Assembly: GCA_002840155.1 (NCBI GenBank)
Contig: PGZH01000010.1
Span: 122,612-186,611, forward strand
Direction: 5' to 3'
DNA: 64,000 nt
DNA from: Gammaproteobacteria bacterium HGW-Gammaproteobacteria-13
GTDB taxonomy: Bacteria; Pseudomonadota; Gammaproteobacteria; Pseudomonadales; Pseudomonadaceae
The translations under genes and the position numbers were made by a program. Shown one piece after another: positions 4,907 to 36,115 of the stretch. Each line of letters opens with the position of its first letter. Positions within the stretch are counted from its first letter, which is position 1. The notes under the pieces are model-generated. The model had not been told where the DNA came from, made no database searches, and saw only the letters and a program-made list of their open reading frames with translations.

Positions 4907-6349
4907 TTAAGCGCTGGCCACCCGCTGATGCAACTGATGCGACAACTGTTCCAGCTGCTGGCCCAGCTGCACCAGTGACTCCTGGGCCTGCAGCAGTTCG
5001 GCGCTGGCGGCGCGTTGGCGTTGGCTGGCGTCACGCTGCGCGGCGCTGTTGTCGCGCACATGCAGCAGTTGCTGGTGCGCGTGGGTAAGCGCCTGGCTGT
5101 GCTGCAGGATCGAGTTGGACAGGTTGTCGGTCAGCCCGGCGTTGCTGCTTAGCGCGGTGCCGACATCGCTGACCTGGGCCGCGCCAGTGTCAATGATCTG
5201 CTGCGACTGGCCCAGTACGTTCTGCACGGTGTCGGCCGTTTCGTTGCTGCGCCGTGAGAGGTTGCGCACCTCATCGGCGACCACGGCAAAGCCGCGGCCA
5301 TGATCGCCGGCGCGGGCTGCTTCGATGGCGGCGTTTAGCGCCAGCAGGTTGGTCTGCTGGGCGATGGCGCTGATCATCTGCATGGATTCGGCGATGCGCT
5401 GGTTGCTCTGCTGAATCGCCTGCATGCTGGCCTGGGCATCCTCCATACGTTGGGCGCAGGCATTGACCTGACTGCTGCTGTGCTGGGTGTCCTGGCTGAG
5501 CTGCTGCATGTGGTCGGTGCTGGAGGCAAGGCTGTCCAGCACTTCATGCAGGGCCAGATCCAGTTGATGCATGGCATCGGCCTGCTGTTGCACATCGGTG
5601 TCGGTGCTCTGGCAACGCTGGCGAATGCCGCCGAGGGTCTGTTGCAGCTGGCCGGCCATCTGCAGCAGGTCGCTGGCGGTGCTGCGCACTTCATCGACGA
5701 TGCCGCCAAGTTGTTCCTGATTACGTGCGGCGCGCTGGCCAAACTCGCGGGATTCGCTAAGCGCCAGCTCGGCATCGGCCAACGCCTGGTTGCGCAGTTG
5801 TGCGCTGTACCACTGCGCTAGCCATACGGTCAGCACCGGCAGGATAAACCCGGAATAGGTGTTCACCGCCGCATCGCGCGGGCTCAGTTCAAATACCGGC
5901 AGGCTCGCACCGCTGCGTTCCAGGCGGATCAGCCAGAACACGAACAGCACCTGTACCAGGCTCCAGACCATGGCGCTGCGAGCGCCGGCCAGCAGGTAGG
6001 CGAAGACGATGATTACCGCCGGCCAGTAGATATGCGCCGAGTGCAGGCCGCCCAGTTGGTAGATCAGCAGCATCGAGTAACTGGCCATGCACGCCAGGGC
6101 CATATTCGCCGCCACGGCCAGCGGCAGCACGGCGCTGCGCAGCACCAGCAGCATCAGTGGCATGCCCAGTACCAGCAGCAACGAGCCATACATCAGCGCA
6201 TCGTTGCCCATGCGGCCCCATTTGATGCAGCTGTACAGGCCGATCACCACGCTGCACAAGCCGCTGAAGGCCAGGGTGCGGGCCAACAGAATGCTGGCCT
6301 GGTCGGTCAAATCATGTGGCAGGAACTGCCCAAGGAAACCCTGTCGCAT
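4907..6349 (-). CDS. Methyl-accepting chemotaxis protein with multi-helix membrane N-terminus
   Basis: Chemoreceptor of about 480 residues. The first ~190 residues contain five or six hydrophobic helices and little periplasmic sequence, and no HAMP domain is evident. The rest is a coiled-coil signalling domain with the conserved tip [20 protein letters not shown] followed by [18 protein letters not shown], which contacts CheA and CheW. The tip has AGDHGRG instead of the usual AGExGRG. ATG at 6349 is preceded by GGAG and was chosen over an upstream extension. It may sense a membrane-linked or cytoplasmic cue; the ligand is unknown. Confidence 0.9.
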
Positions 6350-15964: not shown

Positions 15965-16051
15965 AAGCGGTGGTAGCCGTTGCACTGGTTTGCCTGCTGG
16001 GGCTTTTAGCGGTCGTTGTGCAGTTCAGTTTTTGCGGTCAGCTCTAATTTT

Positions 16052-16245
16052 GGTTTCGCCCCTTACGGGCGAGTCCCTTTTGGCAATTGCCCCAAAAGGA
16101 ACCAAAAGGTCTAGCCCCGACATCCGGCCCTGCCTGCGGCAGGGTAAAGGGCCATCCCTGGCCCATCGCGGCTCTCGCGACATCCATGTCGCTCAACCCC
16201 TTCCACAACGATTCTGTTCACCCTCCTGAAGGGGCGTTTGGCGCC
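16052..16245 (+). repeat. Long dispersed repeat, copy A
   Basis: Shares with copy B, in inverted orientation, the ordered blocks TTTCGCC..TTACGG..CGAGT, GGGCC.TCCCTGGCCC, CTCTCGC..CATCCATG..GCTC and CCTCCTGA.GGGG. The internal segments differ, so the copies are related rather than identical. Confidence 0.7.
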
Positions 16246-16385
16246 GTATGCACGTTTTGTGTGGCTGAACCAAAAGCAAAGCCAAAACAACGGCCTGCCA
16301 CTACAGCGATTTGATGGGTATCGCGTTGCTCAACCCATCCTACGGACAAGGGTTTTAAGCATTTCGGTTTCTAAACACATATCTC

Positions 16386-16624
16386 AGATGCGCGCGCAAA
16401 ATCCCCGTCAGGAGGCCGAGTGGAGGTGTTGCGTAGGGGGACGAGCCGCATGGATGCGGCGAGAGGCTTAAAGGGCCAGGGACGGCCCTTGTAAGCCGGC
16501 CCCCGGAGCAGCGCCGGAGCGAGGGAAGTTTCGCGCAGCGAAACCCGGATGCAGGGGCGCATTCTCTTTGGTTACTTTCTCTTGTGCGAAGCAAGAGAAA
16601 GTAACTCGCCGTAAAGGCGAAAAG
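16386..16624 (-). repeat. Long dispersed repeat, copy B (inverted relative to A)
   Basis: Read on the minus strand it begins TTTCGCCTTTACGGCGAGT, carries a hairpin TTTCTCTTGCTTCGCACAAG plus GAGAAA, and ends with GGCCTCCTGACGGGGATTTT. It lies 95 bases from the stop of the TIR-like gene. Confidence 0.7.
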
Positions 16625-16718
16625 CATAGGTTCAGTCGGCACAGGATGTTTCGTGGAACGGCGATAAGGGATGAATAGAGCTTCAAGATTTTGAAGATTA
16701 AAAGTGTTCTTTTGGTTT

Positions 16719-17504
16719 TTAATTCATAAATTCTCTGCGAATGGTTGCTAAGACATCCCCGTAGGTTTCTTTGATATTGTTTTTTGTAAATCGGATGTAT
16801 TGAACGCCTGCTACATTAGAGAACTCTTCTATTCCGTCTTCTAAGAGCATAACTGCGCGAGGAAACCCAAGTTTTCCTTGGAATAATCCCGCCTCATGAA
16901 TGACATTTTGCCTTGCACGATACTGGCCATTAGGTTGCTCATCCTCAGATGTAAGGACAAGAACGGCAAATGAACTTTTAGCAATCATATCTTCCAGTAT
17001 GTCGCGTATGGTGTGGCCAGCTCTCGCTCCTGTTTCATATGCTTCGACCTTGTATCCGTGCTTTTCTTGAAGGTGGTCCTTCAAGTCTCTCCATTGTGGA
17101 GACCTGCCGTGCCCAATGAATATAGTTGGACCTTGCGCTTTATGTTCCTCTTCTGGAACTTTACAAGCTTCAGCCGAAGTTTCGAAAATTTCAAATATGG
17201 ATTCAATGTTTGAGCGAATATCACATTCGACTTGGACTCTTGCGTAGTCTTCAAAAGTCCAGAATGATAGGGATTTATCTTCGTGCGAGACGAGAAGGTT
17301 CGCATCGCTATGATATTTTCTGTAGTCAGAGAGGAACTCTTCTAGTGAGTCATGGTGCCACTCTTCGTTTCCGTTTCCTACGCTAAGGTTTAGTAGTTTT
17401 AGTTCTTCAACTCCTACCTTTGAAGTTTCGGCAAATCTAGCTAGCGAGTTTTTTATAACTTCTGTGGTAAATCTGGTGGAGATAAATTTTTTGGATTTTT
17501 TCAT
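16719..17504 (-). CDS. TIR-like nucleotide-binding-fold protein (CAP12/Pycsar-TIR type), probable defence effector
   Basis: A 261-residue protein. Residues about 126-240 fit the TIR-like domain of the PF10137 kind: PTIFIGHGRSPQWRDLKDHL at the first strand-loop-helix, YETGARAGHTIRDILEDMI, then FAVLVLTSEDE, and ARQNVIHEAGLFQGKLG, where E204 is the likely catalytic glutamate of an NAD-cleaving TIR enzyme. The N-terminal ~120 residues are helical and acidic, resemble no family I know, and probably sense a trigger or mediate assembly. No cyclase or partner gene is adjacent. The gene is markedly AT-rich compared with its neighbours and sits beside long inverted repeats, signs of transfer. The enzymatic activity is inferred, not shown. 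Confidence 0.82.
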   Translation of the reverse strand: MKKSKKFISTRFTTEVIKNSLARFAETSKVGVEELKLLNLSVGNGNEEWHHDSLEEFLSDYRKYHSDANLLVSHEDKSLSFWTFEDYARVQVECDIRSNIESIFEIFETSAEACKVPEEEHKAQGPTIFIGHGRSPQWRDLKDHLQEKHGYKVEAYETGARAGHTIRDILEDMIAKSSFAVLVLTSEDEQPNGQYRARQNVIHEAGLFQGKLGFPRAVMLLEDGIEEFSNVAGVQYIRFTKNNIKETYGDVLATIRREFMN

Positions 17505-17583
17505 ACGGATTCTTCTTTTAAATTTTTAGCTAGCTTGGTTGCATGGTTTTTCATGGCTAGAAGGATATGAAAAAGTGAGGTTC

Positions 17584-18393
17584 TCAATCACTTGGTTTCT
17601 GCTTTGCCATATGCCCCAAATACTCAACCAATTCCCCCAATTCCTTGTCACTCAACACCTCAACCGCAAACCCCGGCATCTTGCCTTGCGGCCAACGGCG
17701 CAAGCTTTGTGGGTCGCGGATATAGCGGGTTAGAAAGTCGCCGCTGAAATACTCGGTAGGGTTATGCGGAATATTCAGGTCGGGGCCGAATTGTGAGTCG
17801 CCTGCGCCATTCAGGCGATGACAGGCCATGCAGTTTTTCTGGTACTGGGCAAAGCCGGCCTGCACCGCCGGGCTGGCATCGGCCGCTGGCAGCAGTTGCG
17901 GGAAGCGCTGCGCCACCGGGGCTAGTTTGCGGATGCTGGCCAGCTGGAATGGCCATTGTTCCGGGCCGATCTGGCTGGCGGCTGGGTTTTGCCAGACCAG
18001 ATAAAACGGCCCGGCGCTGGGTTTGCCGTTGCCGAGGGCCGGCCAGGGGTGCGCTGGGTCTTCGATGGCCAGCCAGGCCTGGCTGCCAGTTTGGCTAAGC
18101 GCGGGGGCGGCGGAGAGTTCGGCGGCAAAGCCGTCGCTGGCTACCAGTTGCAGGTGATCACCCGGCCGCACGCCTTCCAGCAGCGCGGCCAACGGTACGG
18201 CGCGATAGCGCATGCTGCGTTTGTAGCTGACGTCGTCACTGATCTCGATACTTTGCGCCTGCGGGTGGGCGAGCAGTTGGGCGCTGCTCAGGCGCTGGCT
18301 GCCGTTGCCCAGTTCCAGGGTCAGTTCGGCGGCGTGCAGGTGGCTGAAGGGTAAGAGGGCGAACAGGGCGATGCAGAGGGTGCGCTTGTTCAA
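17584..18393 (-). CDS. Exported protein with molybdopterin-oxidoreductase-like domain fused to cytochrome c
   Basis: A 269-residue periplasmic protein. A signal peptide (1-21) is followed by a domain of about 125 residues resembling the fold of molybdopterin-dependent oxidoreductases, as in short accessory forms (MRYRAVPLAALLEGV, then GPFYLVWQNP). A mono-heme cytochrome c domain follows: heme site CMACH at 188-192 and a probable axial Met239 in QGKMPGF. It starts at TTG, overlapping the rhodanese stop (TTGA), so it is the second gene of a two-gene minus-strand operon. Likely an electron carrier for a sulfur- or redox-related reaction; the partner is unknown. Confidence 0.82.
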   Translation of the reverse strand: MNKRTLCIALFALLPFSHLHAAELTLELGNGSQRLSSAQLLAHPQAQSIEISDDVSYKRSMRYRAVPLAALLEGVRPGDHLQLVASDGFAAELSAAPALSQTGSQAWLAIEDPAHPWPALGNGKPSAGPFYLVWQNPAASQIGPEQWPFQLASIRKLAPVAQRFPQLLPAADASPAVQAGFAQYQKNCMACHRLNGAGDSQFGPDLNIPHNPTEYFSGDFLTRYIRDPQSLRRWPQGKMPGFAVEVLSDKELGELVEYLGHMAKQKPSD

Positions 18394-30479: not shown

Positions 30480-30706
30480 GGTCGGGTTCCTTGTGCTGAA
30501 GTGCAGCAGACGTTACTCATCCGCACTGGCCAGGTAAAGCGCGATGGCTGACTGGCTGGTCAGCGATTGCTGCGCTTGTTGTCGTCAGCCTGTTTATTTC
30601 CCAGGGCTTTGTTCTATTAACCTGGCGGCGATTCGAGCAAGGCCGGCAAACCTCACGACTGATCCCAGCATTTGGCATAAGCGCATGAATCTTTTGAAAA
30701 AAGCTT

Positions 30707-30735
30707 TTGCCTTTGCAAGGCTGTTCGGCTAGATT
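30707..30735 (+). promoter_or_regulatory. Probable sigma70 promoter of tRNA-Ser
   Basis: TTGCCT (-35, 30707-30712) and TAGATT (-10, 30730-30735) are separated by 17 bases, about 38 bases before the mature tRNA. Confidence 0.55.
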
Positions 30736-30772
30736 AGCGCGCCTCGACAGACAGCAATGCCGGTCGAGCCCC

Positions 30773-30862
30773 GGTGAAGTGTCCGAGTGGCTTAAGGAGC
30801 ACGCCTGGAAAGTGTGTATACGAGAAATCGTATCGAGAGTTCGAATCTCTCCTTCACCGCCA
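30773..30862 (+). tRNA. tRNA-Ser(GGA)
   Basis: A 90-nt class II tRNA. Acceptor GGTGAAG pairs with CTTCACC, followed by discriminator G and encoded CCA. Anticodon loop CTGGAAA gives anticodon GGA. A long variable arm (ACGAGAAATCGT) and T-arm GAGAG-TTCGAAT-CTCTC are present. Its 3' 30 bases are duplicated at 35438-35470, so the present 3' end was supplied by an integrated element. Confidence 0.97.
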
Positions 30863-30865
30863 TAT
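30833..30865 (+). repeat. attL: left direct repeat of the tRNA-Ser element
   Basis: 33 bases, from the T-arm of tRNA-Ser to just past its CCA (contains GTTCGAATCTCTCCTTCACC), identical to 35438-35470. Confidence 0.93.
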
Positions 30866-30869
30866 ATAG

Positions 30870-30935: not shown

Positions 30936-30956
30936 TGGTACAGCGGAGTGGTACAG
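30936..30956 (+). promoter_or_regulatory. Left pair of TGGTACAG sites (candidate integrase arm sites)
   Basis: TGGTACAG at 30936-30943 and again at 30949-30956, with a 5-base spacer. The same arrangement occurs near the right end at 35344-35364. The second site ends at the base before the chosen integrase ATG. Confidence 0.6.
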
Positions 30957-32285
30957 ATGACTGTCATGGCACAACCTTGGAAGCATCCTGTGAGTGGCGT
31001 TTTTTACTTCCGCCGTGAGGTCCCCGAAGACATCCGGGGTCTCATCGGTAAGCGGGAGTGGAAGTTGTCGCTGAAGACCAAGGAGCTGGTGCAGGCTCGG
31101 CCACGCTTCGCCCATGAATCAGCGAAGTGCGAGCAGGTGTTCCTCAATGCGCGCGAACAGCAGGCTGGGCGTTTGGTGCTGCAGCACTCAGATGTCCACA
31201 AATTGGCGGACCGCTGGTCTGCCGAGGTCATCGCTGAGTGGGAGGTGGACGCAGAAGCCCCGAAAGATTTCTTGGTCTTTCAGGGGGATGAAGTGTTAAC
31301 AGCCACGGACATGGTGGATGTTGAAGACTCTGATAGTTGCTTCAAAGCGGTTGAGGTCTACATCCGCTCTGCGCTGGCCAAGGCCATGCTACCGCTCCCG
31401 GACCGCGCAGACCCCGTTTGGGAGCGTCTTGCCCAAGAGTTCTACCGTGCTTGGCGCGACCTTTGCCGTGTAGCGCTATCCCGTCATAAGGGAAATTGGC
31501 GGGATATGCCCGTACTTGAAGCTGCGTCACAGCGCCTTGCCCATGAAAATAAGGCTGCATCGCTAGCGTCCAACGTGCCCCGGCTTTCACAGGTGTTCAG
31601 TAACTGGTCTGAGGACAAGCTGCTGAACGACGGCGACACCCGCAGCGCCCGGAAAACCATTAGTGAGTTCGGTTCGGCGGTCACTCGCTTTATCGAACTC
31701 CACCGCGACTTACCCGTGGATCAAGTCAACCGTATCGTCTGCCGGGACTTCCGCGCCAACCTGTTCAAGATACCCACAAAGGGGCAGGGAATACGCGGTA
31801 TGACGGCTCTCGCTCTTATCGAAAAAGCCGCTGCTGAAGGGCTGCCTACGGCCGAATTAGCAACCGTGAACAAGCAGCTTAGGGCCGTGTCGGCAGTGCT
31901 GGGCTTTACCCTCCAGGTGTTGGGTGTCATCCACGAAAACCCGATTGTTGCGTCGGGCCTCATTCAGCGCTCCAAGAAAGCGGAGCGGAAGCAAGGAGCC
32001 AGTGACGATGACAAGGGCTACACCCTCCCTGAGCTTCGGCAGATGTTCGCAAGTCCGTTGTTCCGTGGTGAATGGAAACCGACGAAAGCGGACTTGGGCC
32101 AGGCCCTCTACTGGATGCCCTTAATCCTGGCGTACACCGGTGCGCGGCGTGAGGAGCTGGCGCAATTATTGGTCGCGGATGTGAAGCAAGAGGAGGGGGT
32201 CTGCCTACTCAAACGTGGATGCCCACACGGACTCGATATGCGTGTCGTGCAACGCTGCGTTGGGGCTCTGCTCTGTTGCAACTGA
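30957..32285 (+). pseudogene. Truncated tyrosine recombinase (DUF6538-type integrase)
   Basis: About 442 residues remain. The N-terminus (PWKHPVSGVFYFRREVPEDI) matches the DUF6538 arm-binding domain of phage-like integrases; a core-binding domain follows, then the first catalytic segment LILAYTGARREELAQL with box I Arg. After DVKQEEGVCLL the sequence loses similarity and ends in a cysteine-rich tail; the Lys, HxxR, second His and Tyr nucleophile are missing. So the catalytic half was deleted or replaced near 32200. ATG 30957 follows GGAG by 8 bases. It lies just inside attL, the usual place for the integrase of a tRNA element. Confidence 0.85.
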
Positions 32286-32353
32286 GGTTCCCAATGCAGG
32301 GCGGACGCAATGGTGCCTACGGCCATAAGGGGCGCTGAAAGGCTGCTCCAAGA

Positions 32354-32370
32354 GGGGGGGGAGGGGGGGG
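32354..32370 (+). other. G-rich tract G8-A-G8
   Basis: Two runs of eight G separated by one A, between the broken integrase and the helicase stop. It could form a G-quadruplex or be a slippage-prone site; it may also be a place for sequencing error. Confidence 0.6.
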
Positions 32371-32479
32371 TGCGCTGCTGTATTACTTAAAAGACGAACA
32401 GATTTTTGGCTAAAAATAAGCCTGCAAATTCATACGACTGCATGCATGCGCAGTAGAAGTTAGTCATTCAAGCGCGTCA

Positions 32480-34444
32480 TTAACCCCGTGAGTTAACTTG
32501 CTGGGGGCGTGTGGCGTCCTTTAACCAATCGCTAATTTCCCCCGGCATTTCGAGTTCGTACTTGGCGCGTGAGCACGCTGTGTATAGTTTTGCGCATGCA
32601 GTGCCCAAGTGGTTGCTGTTCCCATCTGAAATCGGGCGTAGCAAGTCGCTTCCGACTAAAACAGAATTAAACTCTTGGTTCTTTACGTCTTCGATTCTAG
32701 CTAAGTAAATATATCCGCCGGGCTTGCAGTAAGAGTTGATTCGCTCTTGGAAGTCGGAGTACGTAAATCCTTTTTCTAGCAATCTTTGAATATCTGCTAA
32801 CGGACGAAAGCCCCCGAAGGTTTCCATTAATTTGTCCCACGTACTGAAATTGAAAATCATCCGATGTCGAGGGCGCACTGAATCAGTGTAAAGGGTAATT
32901 AAGTCGTAAAATAGTCCAGTGAAGTCTTTATGCACTGATTGAGGGAGTTCAAAGCTTGCTTTTGCCGTTGTGAGCCGTATGAACCAGTAAAGAATTCCCC
33001 ATAGATCGCTGACGATAATTGTTGTGGGTTTAGTAGGGATGGGTACGTACTTGTATGAGTTTATTGATGTGGAGTGGTCGGCAAGCCCCTCGAATGAGTC
33101 TTTGATCGAATTCGGGTGTGCTTGAATAAGAGGGTTTAGGACTTCGCTCATTTTAGATCCCGCCCGCAATGACTGGGTAATATTGCGTTGGCGGATGAAA
33201 GATCCATGGCTGGATGAGTGGTTAGATAAATTTTGGAACTCGTCGCCTAAAGTGATTACTGACTGGGGGCTACGGTCTAGTATCTGGATCATTGGAGCAG
33301 TTAATTCGTGGCTTTCATCAATTATGACGTGTGTATATGATTCCGGAATAATGTCGTTGCGTAACGATAAAAATTTAATGCGATGAGCATTGCGGATGGG
33401 GATTCGAATTTCGCGTTCCGATGGTCGAATTAACTCGTTCCAATATAATTTGCTGTATTCCATTAATACGGCAACATCGGTTTCTGATAGCTGAAGTTTT
33501 ATAGCGGGTAAGTGTCTGGCCTCAATGGTCATGCTGGGTGATTGACAAAATGCAAACACGGTACGCCTGCAAATGGTTGCGACTTCTTTAGGGTGGAGCG
33601 AGTTCACAGGGTTAAATTTTAGCCACATAGCTATCTGTTGGTCAGTGACTAAGTAGTTAGTCTGAGTTCGCTGGCTATCTGTAATGCGCCAGCCCTGGCT
33701 TGTGCGATCCATGTTTAGAAGTAAATTGGCCATGCGGCCGAATGTCATGGCAGTTATGTTGTCATGCCCGCTAAATTGGCTAACTTTACTTTTTAATGCT
33801 TCTACCTGCTGCGGAATTAAGGCCATGAAAAGTGTGGATGCAGGATTTAAAAAATCGAATAATCGCGCAATGAGATAAGTTTTTCCTACGCCAGCGTATC
33901 CCTGGATGTGAAACGACTCATCCATGCAGACTTTGAATTCGTCAAAGACTCTTCCTTGTTGGTCGCTAAGTTTTATTTTAGTTCCTGATGAAAGTGTTAT
34001 CTCTTTCCTGAGTGGCTGAGATCGTTCACGTTGGCGTGCACTAAAGGTGAAGTCCCAGTTACCATCAGTTGTTAGGTAGTCCCGATTGTGAATTTCCACC
34101 TCGCTGAGAAGTCTTACTCCGTAAGATTCGATTAGAGCTAAAGTTTCTCTTAAAGTATCTTTGTTGAATTTAGTATTGAGGTTTTCTACGAATTTTGATT
34201 TTTGAATTGTCGGTGGGGTGACTGCTTGTCTAAGCGCCTTTTCATATAGGCGCTCAATAGTTGTAGCGGCAGGGTTTTGCTGGCTTATCTTGTGAAAGTC
34301 AAGAAGAAGCAAAAGACTAATTAGCTCTGGCGTTGCTGCAGAGGATGTGAAATTTATAAGTGGAGCGCCATTAGTCAAGTTGCTCAGGGCTTCCGCTGAG
34401 ATAGGTAGGAAGAAGAAGTGTGATGGTGTATTTGAAGATTTCAT
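32480..34444 (-). CDS. SF1 (UvrD/PIF1-like) helicase with uncharacterised N-terminal region
   Basis: A 654-residue protein. Residues 1-~155 match no family I know. The helicase core begins with a Q-like motif LSDQQGRVFDEF (159-170), Walker A GYAGVGKT (182-189), Walker B VIIDESHE (373-380), motif III TLGDEFQNLS (398-407), motif IV-like TQSLRAGSKM (423-432) and motif VI-like LYTACSRAK near the C-terminus. This set defines superfamily 1. It is co-oriented with and 82 bases downstream of the nuclease gene, so the two form an operon. The region is AT-rich with non-host codon use. By analogy with Gabija-like nuclease/helicase pairs, an anti-phage role is inferred. Confidence 0.85.
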   Translation of the reverse strand: MKSSNTPSHFFFLPISAEALSNLTNGAPLINFTSSAATPELISLLLLLDFHKISQQNPAATTIERLYEKALRQAVTPPTIQKSKFVENLNTKFNKDTLRETLALIESYGVRLLSEVEIHNRDYLTTDGNWDFTFSARQRERSQPLRKEITLSSGTKIKLSDQQGRVFDEFKVCMDESFHIQGYAGVGKTYLIARLFDFLNPASTLFMALIPQQVEALKSKVSQFSGHDNITAMTFGRMANLLLNMDRTSQGWRITDSQRTQTNYLVTDQQIAMWLKFNPVNSLHPKEVATICRRTVFAFCQSPSMTIEARHLPAIKLQLSETDVAVLMEYSKLYWNELIRPSEREIRIPIRNAHRIKFLSLRNDIIPESYTHVIIDESHELTAPMIQILDRSPQSVITLGDEFQNLSNHSSSHGSFIRQRNITQSLRAGSKMSEVLNPLIQAHPNSIKDSFEGLADHSTSINSYKYVPIPTKPTTIIVSDLWGILYWFIRLTTAKASFELPQSVHKDFTGLFYDLITLYTDSVRPRHRMIFNFSTWDKLMETFGGFRPLADIQRLLEKGFTYSDFQERINSYCKPGGYIYLARIEDVKNQEFNSVLVGSDLLRPISDGNSNHLGTACAKLYTACSRAKYELEMPGEISDWLKDATRPQQVNSRG

Positions 34445-34526
34445 TGTTATATACCCTTACTAAATTGAATGGCTAGGCATGGGCAAAGTCGATACTAGTA
34501 GGGTGTCGTTTTGGGCGCGGCATCGG

Positions 34527-35192
34527 TTAAGCAATGTCATACACCTTATTCGATGCCTTGGATGAAGTGGCGATTTTTTCGGCAAATCGGCAGAGTAGCC
34601 ATTCAGCTTTACAATGCTGTAGATGAAGAGAGTTCTTGAAGTGATTTAATGGTCCATTGTTTTCCTCAAAAAAGCTTTCTAATTGATTTCGGTCTAGAAG
34701 TGAATATATCCAGCCTAATAGTAAATTTGAGATGCCCTGCATTTGGAAATTTTTGTTTGGGGTGATGGCTTTTATGAATTTTAAATGAGATTTTGAGTCT
34801 AGACCTTGATCTATTAATTGGCTTATTTCTTCAATTGTAACTAATGGTGCGCGCTTACCGTTATGGAAATATGCTAACTCGGCACCTGTAGCATGGCCAT
34901 TAGTCCACTCGGGCTTTCCATACGCAAAGACGACAGGACAACTAGTGGCAGCTTCCAGATCGGCAGCTTTTTCAATTTCTATTGCTGTTGGCGTAGCGCC
35001 TTTTACTTCCAAGAAAATTCCAGCGGCAGGCAAATAAAAATCAGGCTTGTACCAACCATGACGGGTATCTTCCCGTCGCCACTCGTAAAGCCAGACAACT
35101 CCAATGGCGTCCATAATCGCCGCCCACCGTGTCTCTGAATGGGACCGCATTTCATAGCCTGAATGTATAAAAGCCGACTGCCTTCCGTGCAT
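34527..35192 (-). CDS. PD-(D/E)XK nuclease, first gene of the island pair
   Basis: A 221-residue protein with a compact PD-(D/E)XK nuclease core in its first 70 residues: E20 in SHSETRWAAIMDA, P50-D51 in YKPDFYLP, then E62-V-K64 in FLEVKGA, the expected E...PD-X10-EXK order. The C-terminal ~110 residues are helical and unassigned. A longer frame starts at 35228, but ATG at 35192 follows AGGGGG and gives MHGRQSAFIHSG. The next gene on the strand is the SF1 helicase. Such nuclease-helicase pairs occur in several phage-defence systems, but this combination is not one I can name. Confidence 0.8.
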   Translation of the reverse strand: MHGRQSAFIHSGYEMRSHSETRWAAIMDAIGVVWLYEWRREDTRHGWYKPDFYLPAAGIFLEVKGATPTAIEIEKAADLEAATSCPVVFAYGKPEWTNGHATGAELAYFHNGKRAPLVTIEEISQLIDQGLDSKSHLKFIKAITPNKNFQMQGISNLLLGWIYSLLDRNQLESFFEENNGPLNHFKNSLHLQHCKAEWLLCRFAEKIATSSKASNKVYDIA

Positions 35193-35343
35193 TTTTACCC
35201 CCTTTTGGAGCCCCGTAGCAGCCACCACGCTACGACCAAGCCATAGCCTGCCAAATGGCTGCAGATAACGTAAGAGGGGGCGGAGATTTATGAAGGCCGA
35301 ATGAGCTGGCGATGCTTTCGCTAGTGTCGCGGAGCTAATTGAC

Positions 35344-35364
35344 TGGTACAGAACACTGGTACAG
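35344..35364 (+). promoter_or_regulatory. Right pair of TGGTACAG sites (candidate integrase arm sites)
   Basis: TGGTACAG at 35344-35351 and 35357-35364, the same 8-mer, direction and 5-base spacing as at the left end of the element. Confidence 0.6.
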
Positions 35365-35437
35365 AATAGGCCTCATTGGAGACTTGAAGCCCTTGATTTA
35401 TAAGGGTTTCAATGGGGCTGCCTTGGCAGATGTAGAC

Positions 35438-35470
35438 TCGAGAGTTCGAATCTCTCCTTCACCGCCATAT
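35438..35470 (+). repeat. attR: right direct repeat of the tRNA-Ser element
   Basis: Identical to 30833-30865: T-arm and acceptor end of tRNA-Ser without the rest of the gene. Marks the ancestral tRNA 3' end. Confidence 0.93.
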
Positions 35471-35479
35471 TGATTCAGC

Positions 35480-35517
35480 TAAGGCCCTGATAACTAATAA
35501 GTTGTCGGGGCCTTTTG
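35480..35517 (+). terminator. Presumed original terminator of tRNA-Ser
   Basis: AAGGCCCTGATAAC and GTTGTCGGGGCCTTTT fold into a long stem 10 bases after attR. Its position fits the terminator used before the element inserted. Confidence 0.75.
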
Positions 35518-35561
35518 CTTTCTGGCGTTTGGTGGTGTCGATAGAGTGTCGAAAACCTTTA

Positions 35562-35825
35562 TCAGTCGTAGTGCGACCAGAGCCGTAGAACCTTCACCAC
35601 CTGTTCATCCGGCAGCACCATATAGACCAGCCGATGCTGAATGTTGATGCGGCGTGAGTAAGCCTCGGCGAGATCCCCGACCAGCTTTTCATAGGGAGGA
35701 GGGTTCTGAAACGGGTTTTCCTGTACGACTGCCAGCAGGGCTTTAGCTTTGTCCTTTAAGCCAGCCGCTGCCAGTTTCTGTGCATCTTTCTGAGCTTGCT
35801 TTGTGTAGACGAGCTGCCAATTCAC
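35562..35825 (-). CDS. yoeB: YoeB-family mRNA interferase toxin
   Basis: An 87-residue RelE-fold toxin that cleaves mRNA at the ribosome. The basic N-terminus (QAQKDAQKL), the central NPFQNPPPYEKLVGDLAEAYSRRIN segment and the C-terminal catalytic tail VKVLRLWSHYD match YoeB; the C-terminal His and Tyr are part of its active site. GTG at 35825 overlaps the antitoxin stop; a TTG one codon earlier is also possible. It is the second gene of the yefM-yoeB operon, 92 bases outside the right end of the tRNA-Ser element. Confidence 0.93.
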   Translation of the reverse strand: MNWQLVYTKQAQKDAQKLAAAGLKDKAKALLAVVQENPFQNPPPYEKLVGDLAEAYSRRINIQHRLVYMVLPDEQVVKVLRLWSHYD

Positions 35826-36064
35826 CAATCCAGTTCCTTAGCGCATTCCTCGACCGGCTCGGCCATGCCTTCTTTGATCGACTCGCGCATGCCAGGAACT
35901 GACAGCAGGTACAGAGTCTCTTGAATCGCGTCCCAGTCTTCGGCCGACACCAGAACAGAGTTGGTGCGCTTGCCTGAAATCAGGATGGGCTGGTGCGATT
36001 CGGCAGATTGATCCATCAGCCGGTACAGGTTTGTGCGTGCTTCGCTTGCGGTTAGGGTTTGCAT
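35822..36064 (-). CDS. yefM: YefM/Phd-family antitoxin
   Basis: An 80-residue antitoxin and autorepressor. The N-terminal Phd/YefM DNA-binding fold is shown by MQTLTASEARTNLYRLMDQ and GKRTNSVLVSAEDWDAIQET; the acidic C-terminus (GMAEPVEECAKELDW) is the segment that wraps and neutralises YoeB. It precedes and overlaps the toxin gene, the usual order. A palindromic CGTACG-based site 30 bases upstream fits YefM autoregulation. Confidence 0.94.
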   Translation of the reverse strand: MQTLTASEARTNLYRLMDQSAESHQPILISGKRTNSVLVSAEDWDAIQETLYLLSVPGMRESIKEGMAEPVEECAKELDW

Positions 36065-36093
36065 GGGGCTCGGCCTCCTATGTCGTTGTGCGT

Positions 36094-36115
36094 AGCGTAC
36101 GGCAAAACGTACGCT
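36094..36115. promoter_or_regulatory. Probable YefM-YoeB operator
   Basis: Perfect inverted repeat AGCGTACG-GCAAAA-CGTACGCT, 30 bases upstream of yefM. The E. coli yefM operator is built on TGTACA hexamers; the two CGTACG cores here are the probable equivalent. Confidence 0.7.

Follow-up and report, generated by a model that had tools for sequence, protein, structure and literature searches.

A nuclease gene and a helicase gene paired in a tRNA-Ser integrative element of a Pseudomonadaceae genome: a possible small defence acting on branched DNA

What a nuclease and a helicase are doing together in a small integrative element is the question raised by a locus in Gammaproteobacteria bacterium HGW-Gammaproteobacteria-13, a member of the Pseudomonadaceae (assembly GCA_002840155.1). 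The window analysed here, 64,000 nucleotides of contig PGZH01000010.1 (positions 122,612 to 186,611), contains a nuclease gene at 34527–35192 and a superfamily 1 (SF1) helicase gene at 32480–34444, both on the minus strand and separated by 82 bp. The two open reading frames (ORFs), of 221 and 654 aa, were confirmed as described in a first-pass annotation, which had further taken them for a candidate undescribed, stand-alone defence system. In the data searched, the pair is not a recurring system. The preferred reading, to which a probability of about 0.42 is given, is that a junction nuclease and a helicase were assembled locally and may serve as a small defence acting on branched phage or plasmid DNA.

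Families of the nuclease and the helicase

The ATG start of the nuclease at 35192, which gives 221 aa, agrees with its relatives and is preceded by a strong Shine-Dalgarno-like AAAAGGGGGTAAAA; an alternative GTG start, giving a protein of 233 aa, is possible. Across 35 aligned sequences, in which 34 relatives from viral contigs share 29–47% identity with the window protein, residues E20, P50, D51, E62 and K64 are invariant, in agreement with the residues proposed in the first-pass annotation. With this E...PD...ExK active site, the protein is classified from its sequence as a PD-(D/E)XK-type nuclease, probably of a T7-endonuclease-I/Hjc-like family, with predicted junction-cutting activity. 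One relative (locus L136) reaches 47% identity over 219 aa, many others lie at 38–43%, and the nearest PHROG is phrog_21138 (E 4e-11). In comparison with T7 endonuclease I (PF05367), the window nuclease itself has no Pfam match at E up to 1, and relative to T7 endonuclease I and archaeal Hjc it carries about 110 extra C-terminal residues, mostly helical. The 'Holliday junction resolvase' of Pseudomonas phage YMC11/02/R656 (gp102) belongs to the same family and has the same active-site residues; it follows DnaB in a replication module, whereas the window nuclease lies in a tRNA element, ahead of an SF1 helicase.

For the helicase, an alignment of 30 sequences with 24–51% identity to the window protein revealed invariant G185, G187 and K188 (Walker A), D376 and E377 (Walker B), G400, D401 and Q404 (motif III) and R626 within the motif VI-like segment YTACSRAKYEL, and the motif set reported earlier as complete is borne out by these residues. 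Pfam assigns the protein at superfamily level only, with Viral_helicase1 above the cutoff (1.3e-5) and other families below it. The profile built from the 30 members matched FBH1 (F-box DNA helicase 1) at E 2e-17, motifs Q to IV and V–VI aligning, followed by weaker matches to a putative deoxyribonuclease (9kwf), HelD, UvrD1 and PIF1, and the protein is classed by this comparison as an FBH1/UvrD-like SF1 helicase. Unlike FBH1, it belongs to a bacterial family of about 650 aa; the match begins at profile position 151, and the N-terminal ~150 aa, unmatched to FBH1 or to any named domain, can be aligned across the family. Entries of Pseudomonas plasmids and chromosomes labelled 'AAA family ATPase / helicase / ATP-binding protein' represent the same family (24–51% identity), whose members are named in the records only as helicase, ATPase or ATP-binding protein. 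Relatives were located at 12 loci in species-representative genomes, in 155 plasmid records, in at least three viral contigs and in 131 of the 398 Pseudomonas genomes sampled, the source genome included, and in none of 50,697 phage records.

A tRNA-Ser element with two cargo genes

Direct repeats at a tRNA end, together with an empty site in a relative, identify the surrounding DNA as a tRNA integrative element. The attachment-site gene is a tRNA-Ser (GGA) called by ARAGORN on the plus strand (30773–30862); the 33-bp repeat that coincides with its 3' end (attL, 30833–30865) recurs identically at 35438–35470 (attR), and the spacing of 4605 bp gives the size of the element. In genome G014, the best left-flank match among the 37 other genomes searched, the left flank (window 30628–30866) abuts the right flank (35438–35543), the two overlapping by roughly one repeat length, and this genome therefore represents the empty site. 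A tyrosine-recombinase gene (30948–32285, plus strand), the nuclease and the helicase are the only recognised genes of the att-bounded stretch, the latter two both intact and filling the cargo space; no replication initiator, relaxase or structural gene was recognised among the ORFs between the att sites. Thus, the repeats and the empty site sustain the earlier description of a PD-(D/E)XK-type nuclease and an SF1 helicase as the cargo of a compact tRNA element.

The integrase has a G+C content of 0.579 and the core gene earP one of 0.611, whereas the two cargo genes have 0.439 and 0.429; the cargo therefore seems to have been acquired later, as a single piece. The integrase, which has a DUF6538 N-terminus, comprises 445 aa, compared with 562–610 aa for the ORFs of its relatives in four loci (L098, L099, L100 and L106). 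Its homology stops at about 32190–32210, a faint trace in a second frame extends to 32325, and the last ~100 integrase residues have no credible trace in 32101–36100; in L098 and L099, an H-x-x-R plus tyrosine region was read by eye at the C-terminus. By this comparison the integrase is truncated, a feature that the first-pass annotation had missed, with its catalytic HxxR...Y part absent, and because of this loss the element would not be self-mobile at present and is probably immobile now. Near attL and attR, respectively, lie paired TGGTACAG repeats of family D5 (30936–30957 and 35344–35365, the first 82% identical to the second), which may be integrase arm sites.

Possible roles of the pair

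In the preferred reading, nuclease and helicase would work as one unit, possibly co-expressed and physically coupled. The helicase would load at single-stranded gaps, D-loops or stalled forks, opening these structures, and the nuclease, a junction enzyme captured from a phage and turned against phages, would cut the resulting branched DNA at a fork or Holliday junction. Branched DNA is a plausible substrate of both an FBH1-like helicase and a junction nuclease, and since replicating phages and plasmids typically contain branched, recombination-rich DNA, defence against such invaders is the most likely role of the pair. The logic of such a pair has precedent: in the accessible text of one study, Hachiman is described as a sensor helicase complexed with an effector nuclease (PMC12278908), and the accessible text of a review names phage single-stranded DNA-binding proteins as the presumed activators of both Nhi and Hachiman (PMC12904381). 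More specifically, the locus may be a new anti-phage system of two genes, built on a T7-endonuclease-I-like junction nuclease of phage origin that has been re-coupled from the phage's own DnaB to an FBH1-like helicase and aimed at branched replication or recombination DNA of incoming phage, a tentative proposal that is, in this exact form, rather doubtful. If true, a phage replication nuclease would have become an immune effector by means of a swapped helicase partner, and the locus would provide a minimal, two-protein case in which to test how branched foreign DNA is distinguished from the cell's own.

Several observations weigh against a defence role. The nuclease was absent from all 50 helicase loci fetched (tblastn, 1e-3), and the helicase was absent from all 80 viral nuclease loci among the matches listed. 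The adjacency was therefore seen once only in the data searched, and the claim of a recurring undescribed defence type fails. The top structural matches of the nuclease tie with unrelated proteins, and promoter-like matches occur at chance level (5 found, 5.3 expected). At three chromosomal helicase loci, the 10 neighbours are ordinary genes, such as those for a TonB receptor, a two-component system, AraC and LysR regulators and an aldehyde dehydrogenase, and other helicase relatives are located on plasmids. Once three loci with no recognised helicase ORF (L075, L115 and L127) had been left out, named defence genes were found within 2.5 kb in at least four of the remaining 47; this count has no background control, and no enrichment of defence genes around the helicase is therefore claimed. 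The cargo of related elements, furthermore, also includes serine-recombinase domains (9 members), the arsenic-resistance protein ArsB, a fatty-acid hydroxylase and phage-like domains. Finally, the nuclease homologue lies directly behind DnaB in 78 of the 80 viral contigs listed and beside DnaB in all seven other Pseudomonas loci. On this last point, judged from the DnaB neighbours, the nuclease half of the pair comes close to what would speak against the earlier defence claim, namely homologues that sit in replication modules.

The DnaB neighbours favour a housekeeping role, a serious rival though less likely than defence, in which helicase and junction nuclease would help the element, or its source plasmid or phage, to replicate, recombine or repair forks. 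The homologue in phage YMC11/02/R656 is found not only next to DnaB but also near a replication initiator, NinB and NinG, and the plasmid records listed above make the helicase family a frequent one on Pseudomonas plasmids. However, with no ORF recognised for replication initiation, relaxase or structural functions between the att sites and with a truncated integrase, the element shows no sign of replicating by itself that such enzymes could serve, and elements with related integrases carry accessory cargo. Locus L057 (9803–11836) contains a natural DnaB-nuclease fusion ORF of 677 aa, which supports a tight nuclease-helicase coupling in phages. Two viral contigs (L176 and L177, ~4974–5612) encode homologues at 43–44% identity with no DnaB upstream, where the preceding ORFs have no assigned function.

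Chance juxtaposition of a solitary helicase and a captured phage nuclease, each acting alone or inactive, is an equally serious rival, again less likely than defence. It would be consistent with the failure to find either family with the other at the other inspected loci and with their distribution: the nuclease family is present in only 8 of the 398 Pseudomonas genomes, against 131 for the helicase, and unlinked co-occurrence in one genome (five of the seven other nuclease genomes) is only weakly above expectation (p 0.04). Nevertheless, the shared strand, the short gap, the matching base composition, the intactness of both genes and the complete filling of the cargo space all argue against an accidental encounter, as does the lack of a DnaB remnant beside the nuclease. 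Unlike its homologues, the window nuclease is not directly 3' of DnaB, and DnaB yielded only short matches (E 0.22 or worse) in 32101–36100. The nuclease might have been left over from a prophage replication module that decayed, an origin that was considered and rejected, since no DnaB remnant lies beside it; a weak replication-initiator match (E 0.007) at ~35.8–36.0 kb falls outside the element, in a toxin-antitoxin stretch.

Named systems were represented by PADLOC 2023. The nuclease has no match there at E up to 10, and the helicase matches PDC-M16A (2e-4), Nhi (3e-4), GajB (1e-3) and AbiO (5e-3) only partially; Pfam, PADLOC, PHROGs and NCBIfam gave nothing decisive for an assignment, so the earlier view that neither protein can be placed in a named system stands. 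No description of such a nuclease-helicase pair was found in literature titles or the openings of abstracts. Gabija, Nhi and Hachiman follow a common nuclease-plus-helicase logic, whereas the window nuclease is unrelated to theirs and the helicase is a partial match. In Gabija, the GajA partner is an OLD/TOPRIM nuclease, in contrast to the DnaB-linked phage family of the window nuclease. Nhi combines nuclease and helicase in a single gene, as stated in the accessible text of the review cited above (PMC12904381), whereas the window has two separate ORFs, and the best stretch of the Nhi match covers only residues 363–427. For neither protein did PADLOC match a Hachiman model (HamA or HamB). A diverged form of one of these systems, suggested by the weak Nhi and GajB matches, is thus highly improbable, being largely contradicted by the family of the nuclease partner and by the short helicase stretches that the matches span.

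Neighbours of the helicase family and related elements

The ORFs around the helicase were listed in search of a constant partner, and none was constant, so this candidate was rejected. A DUF6036 gene lies downstream of the helicase in L005, with members of the same cluster in L002, L003 and L009, and a gene of ~150 aa lies upstream in part of a clade at ~27% identity. ORFs of 485–497 aa that follow the helicase in L064–L066 were dropped, as they look like antisense readings of a neighbour; the one in L065 has no Pfam match. Directly upstream of the helicase, an ImmA/IrrE-like gene was read from the sequence in L072 (11097–11831) and in the viral contig L133 (1397–2131), where it is preceded by an integrase-like gene, and a clustered relative occupies the upstream position in L128 (10673–11380).

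Defence neighbours were sought in 108 of 151 non-redundant helicase neighbours (at least 100 aa, within 2.5 kb), the other 43 being judged short or spurious; the best 25 of 188 PADLOC families were considered, and 20 proteins were then scanned singly. Septu adjoins the helicase in L116 and in L119, the latter at 84% and 76% identity to L116, a DpdE/ZorD-like SNF2 gene is found in L012, and a type I restriction-modification (RM) system and DruA lie near the relative in L130, whose helicase ORF spans only 499 aa. In L130 (G042:C22), an N-terminal helicase match (query 10–157) lies ~8 kb from the remainder; the two parts, separated by a type I RM methylase and specificity gene, were possibly split by an insertion. 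The FBH1-like helicase family, widespread in Pseudomonas and sometimes found beside defence genes, deserves attention regardless of the role of the pair.

Relatives of the integrase occur in 65 of the 398 Pseudomonas genomes (source included; E 0.001 or better, many weak). A tRNA-Ser(GGA) or tRNA-Phe was called in 13 of the 14 loci fetched, and nine have a direct repeat of the tRNA end 6.3–13.1 kb away; no such repeat was found in L098, L101, L102, L105 or L111. From the nine repeat-bounded elements, 65 of ~72 ORFs were scanned. Among the best 25 of 114 PADLOC families at 1e-3 were PDC-S32 (4e-109), PDC-M34 (1e-47) and HEC-04 (4e-38), and Pfam identified AbiJ_NTD4, HEPN_Swt1, a caspase domain and HD-CE. 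These matches indicate that elements of this type carry accessory cargo that is, by homology, partly defence-like. Although a recurring defence type is not supported, some helicase relatives and several related elements do adjoin defence genes, so that this single pair may still have a defence role. The Pseudomonas tmRNA elements I23, I44 and I55, with intY and putative defence genes in the accessible text of their description (PMC12595487), resemble the window element in being headed by an integrase, in their direct repeats and putative defence cargo and, as far as that text goes, in having no recognised transfer genes. They differ in occupying a tmRNA site, in their larger size and, for I55, in a working intY, as opposed to the tRNA-Ser site and truncated integrase of the window element.

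In the ~27% clade, a 4.5S/signal recognition particle (SRP) RNA gene adjoins the helicase in three of the seven loci searched (L116, 9449–9541; L119, 9563–9659; L122, 11457–11553) and lies ~10 kb off in a fourth; ffs may be an insertion hotspot. In L116, the helicase relative beside the SRP RNA gene is also near an integrase-like gene and Septu. Within the window, a YefM/YoeB toxin-antitoxin pair (35562–36064) lies directly beyond attR, outside the element, and at 16001–18000 the G+C content falls to 0.496 amid ~0.62, which may mark a foreign insert.
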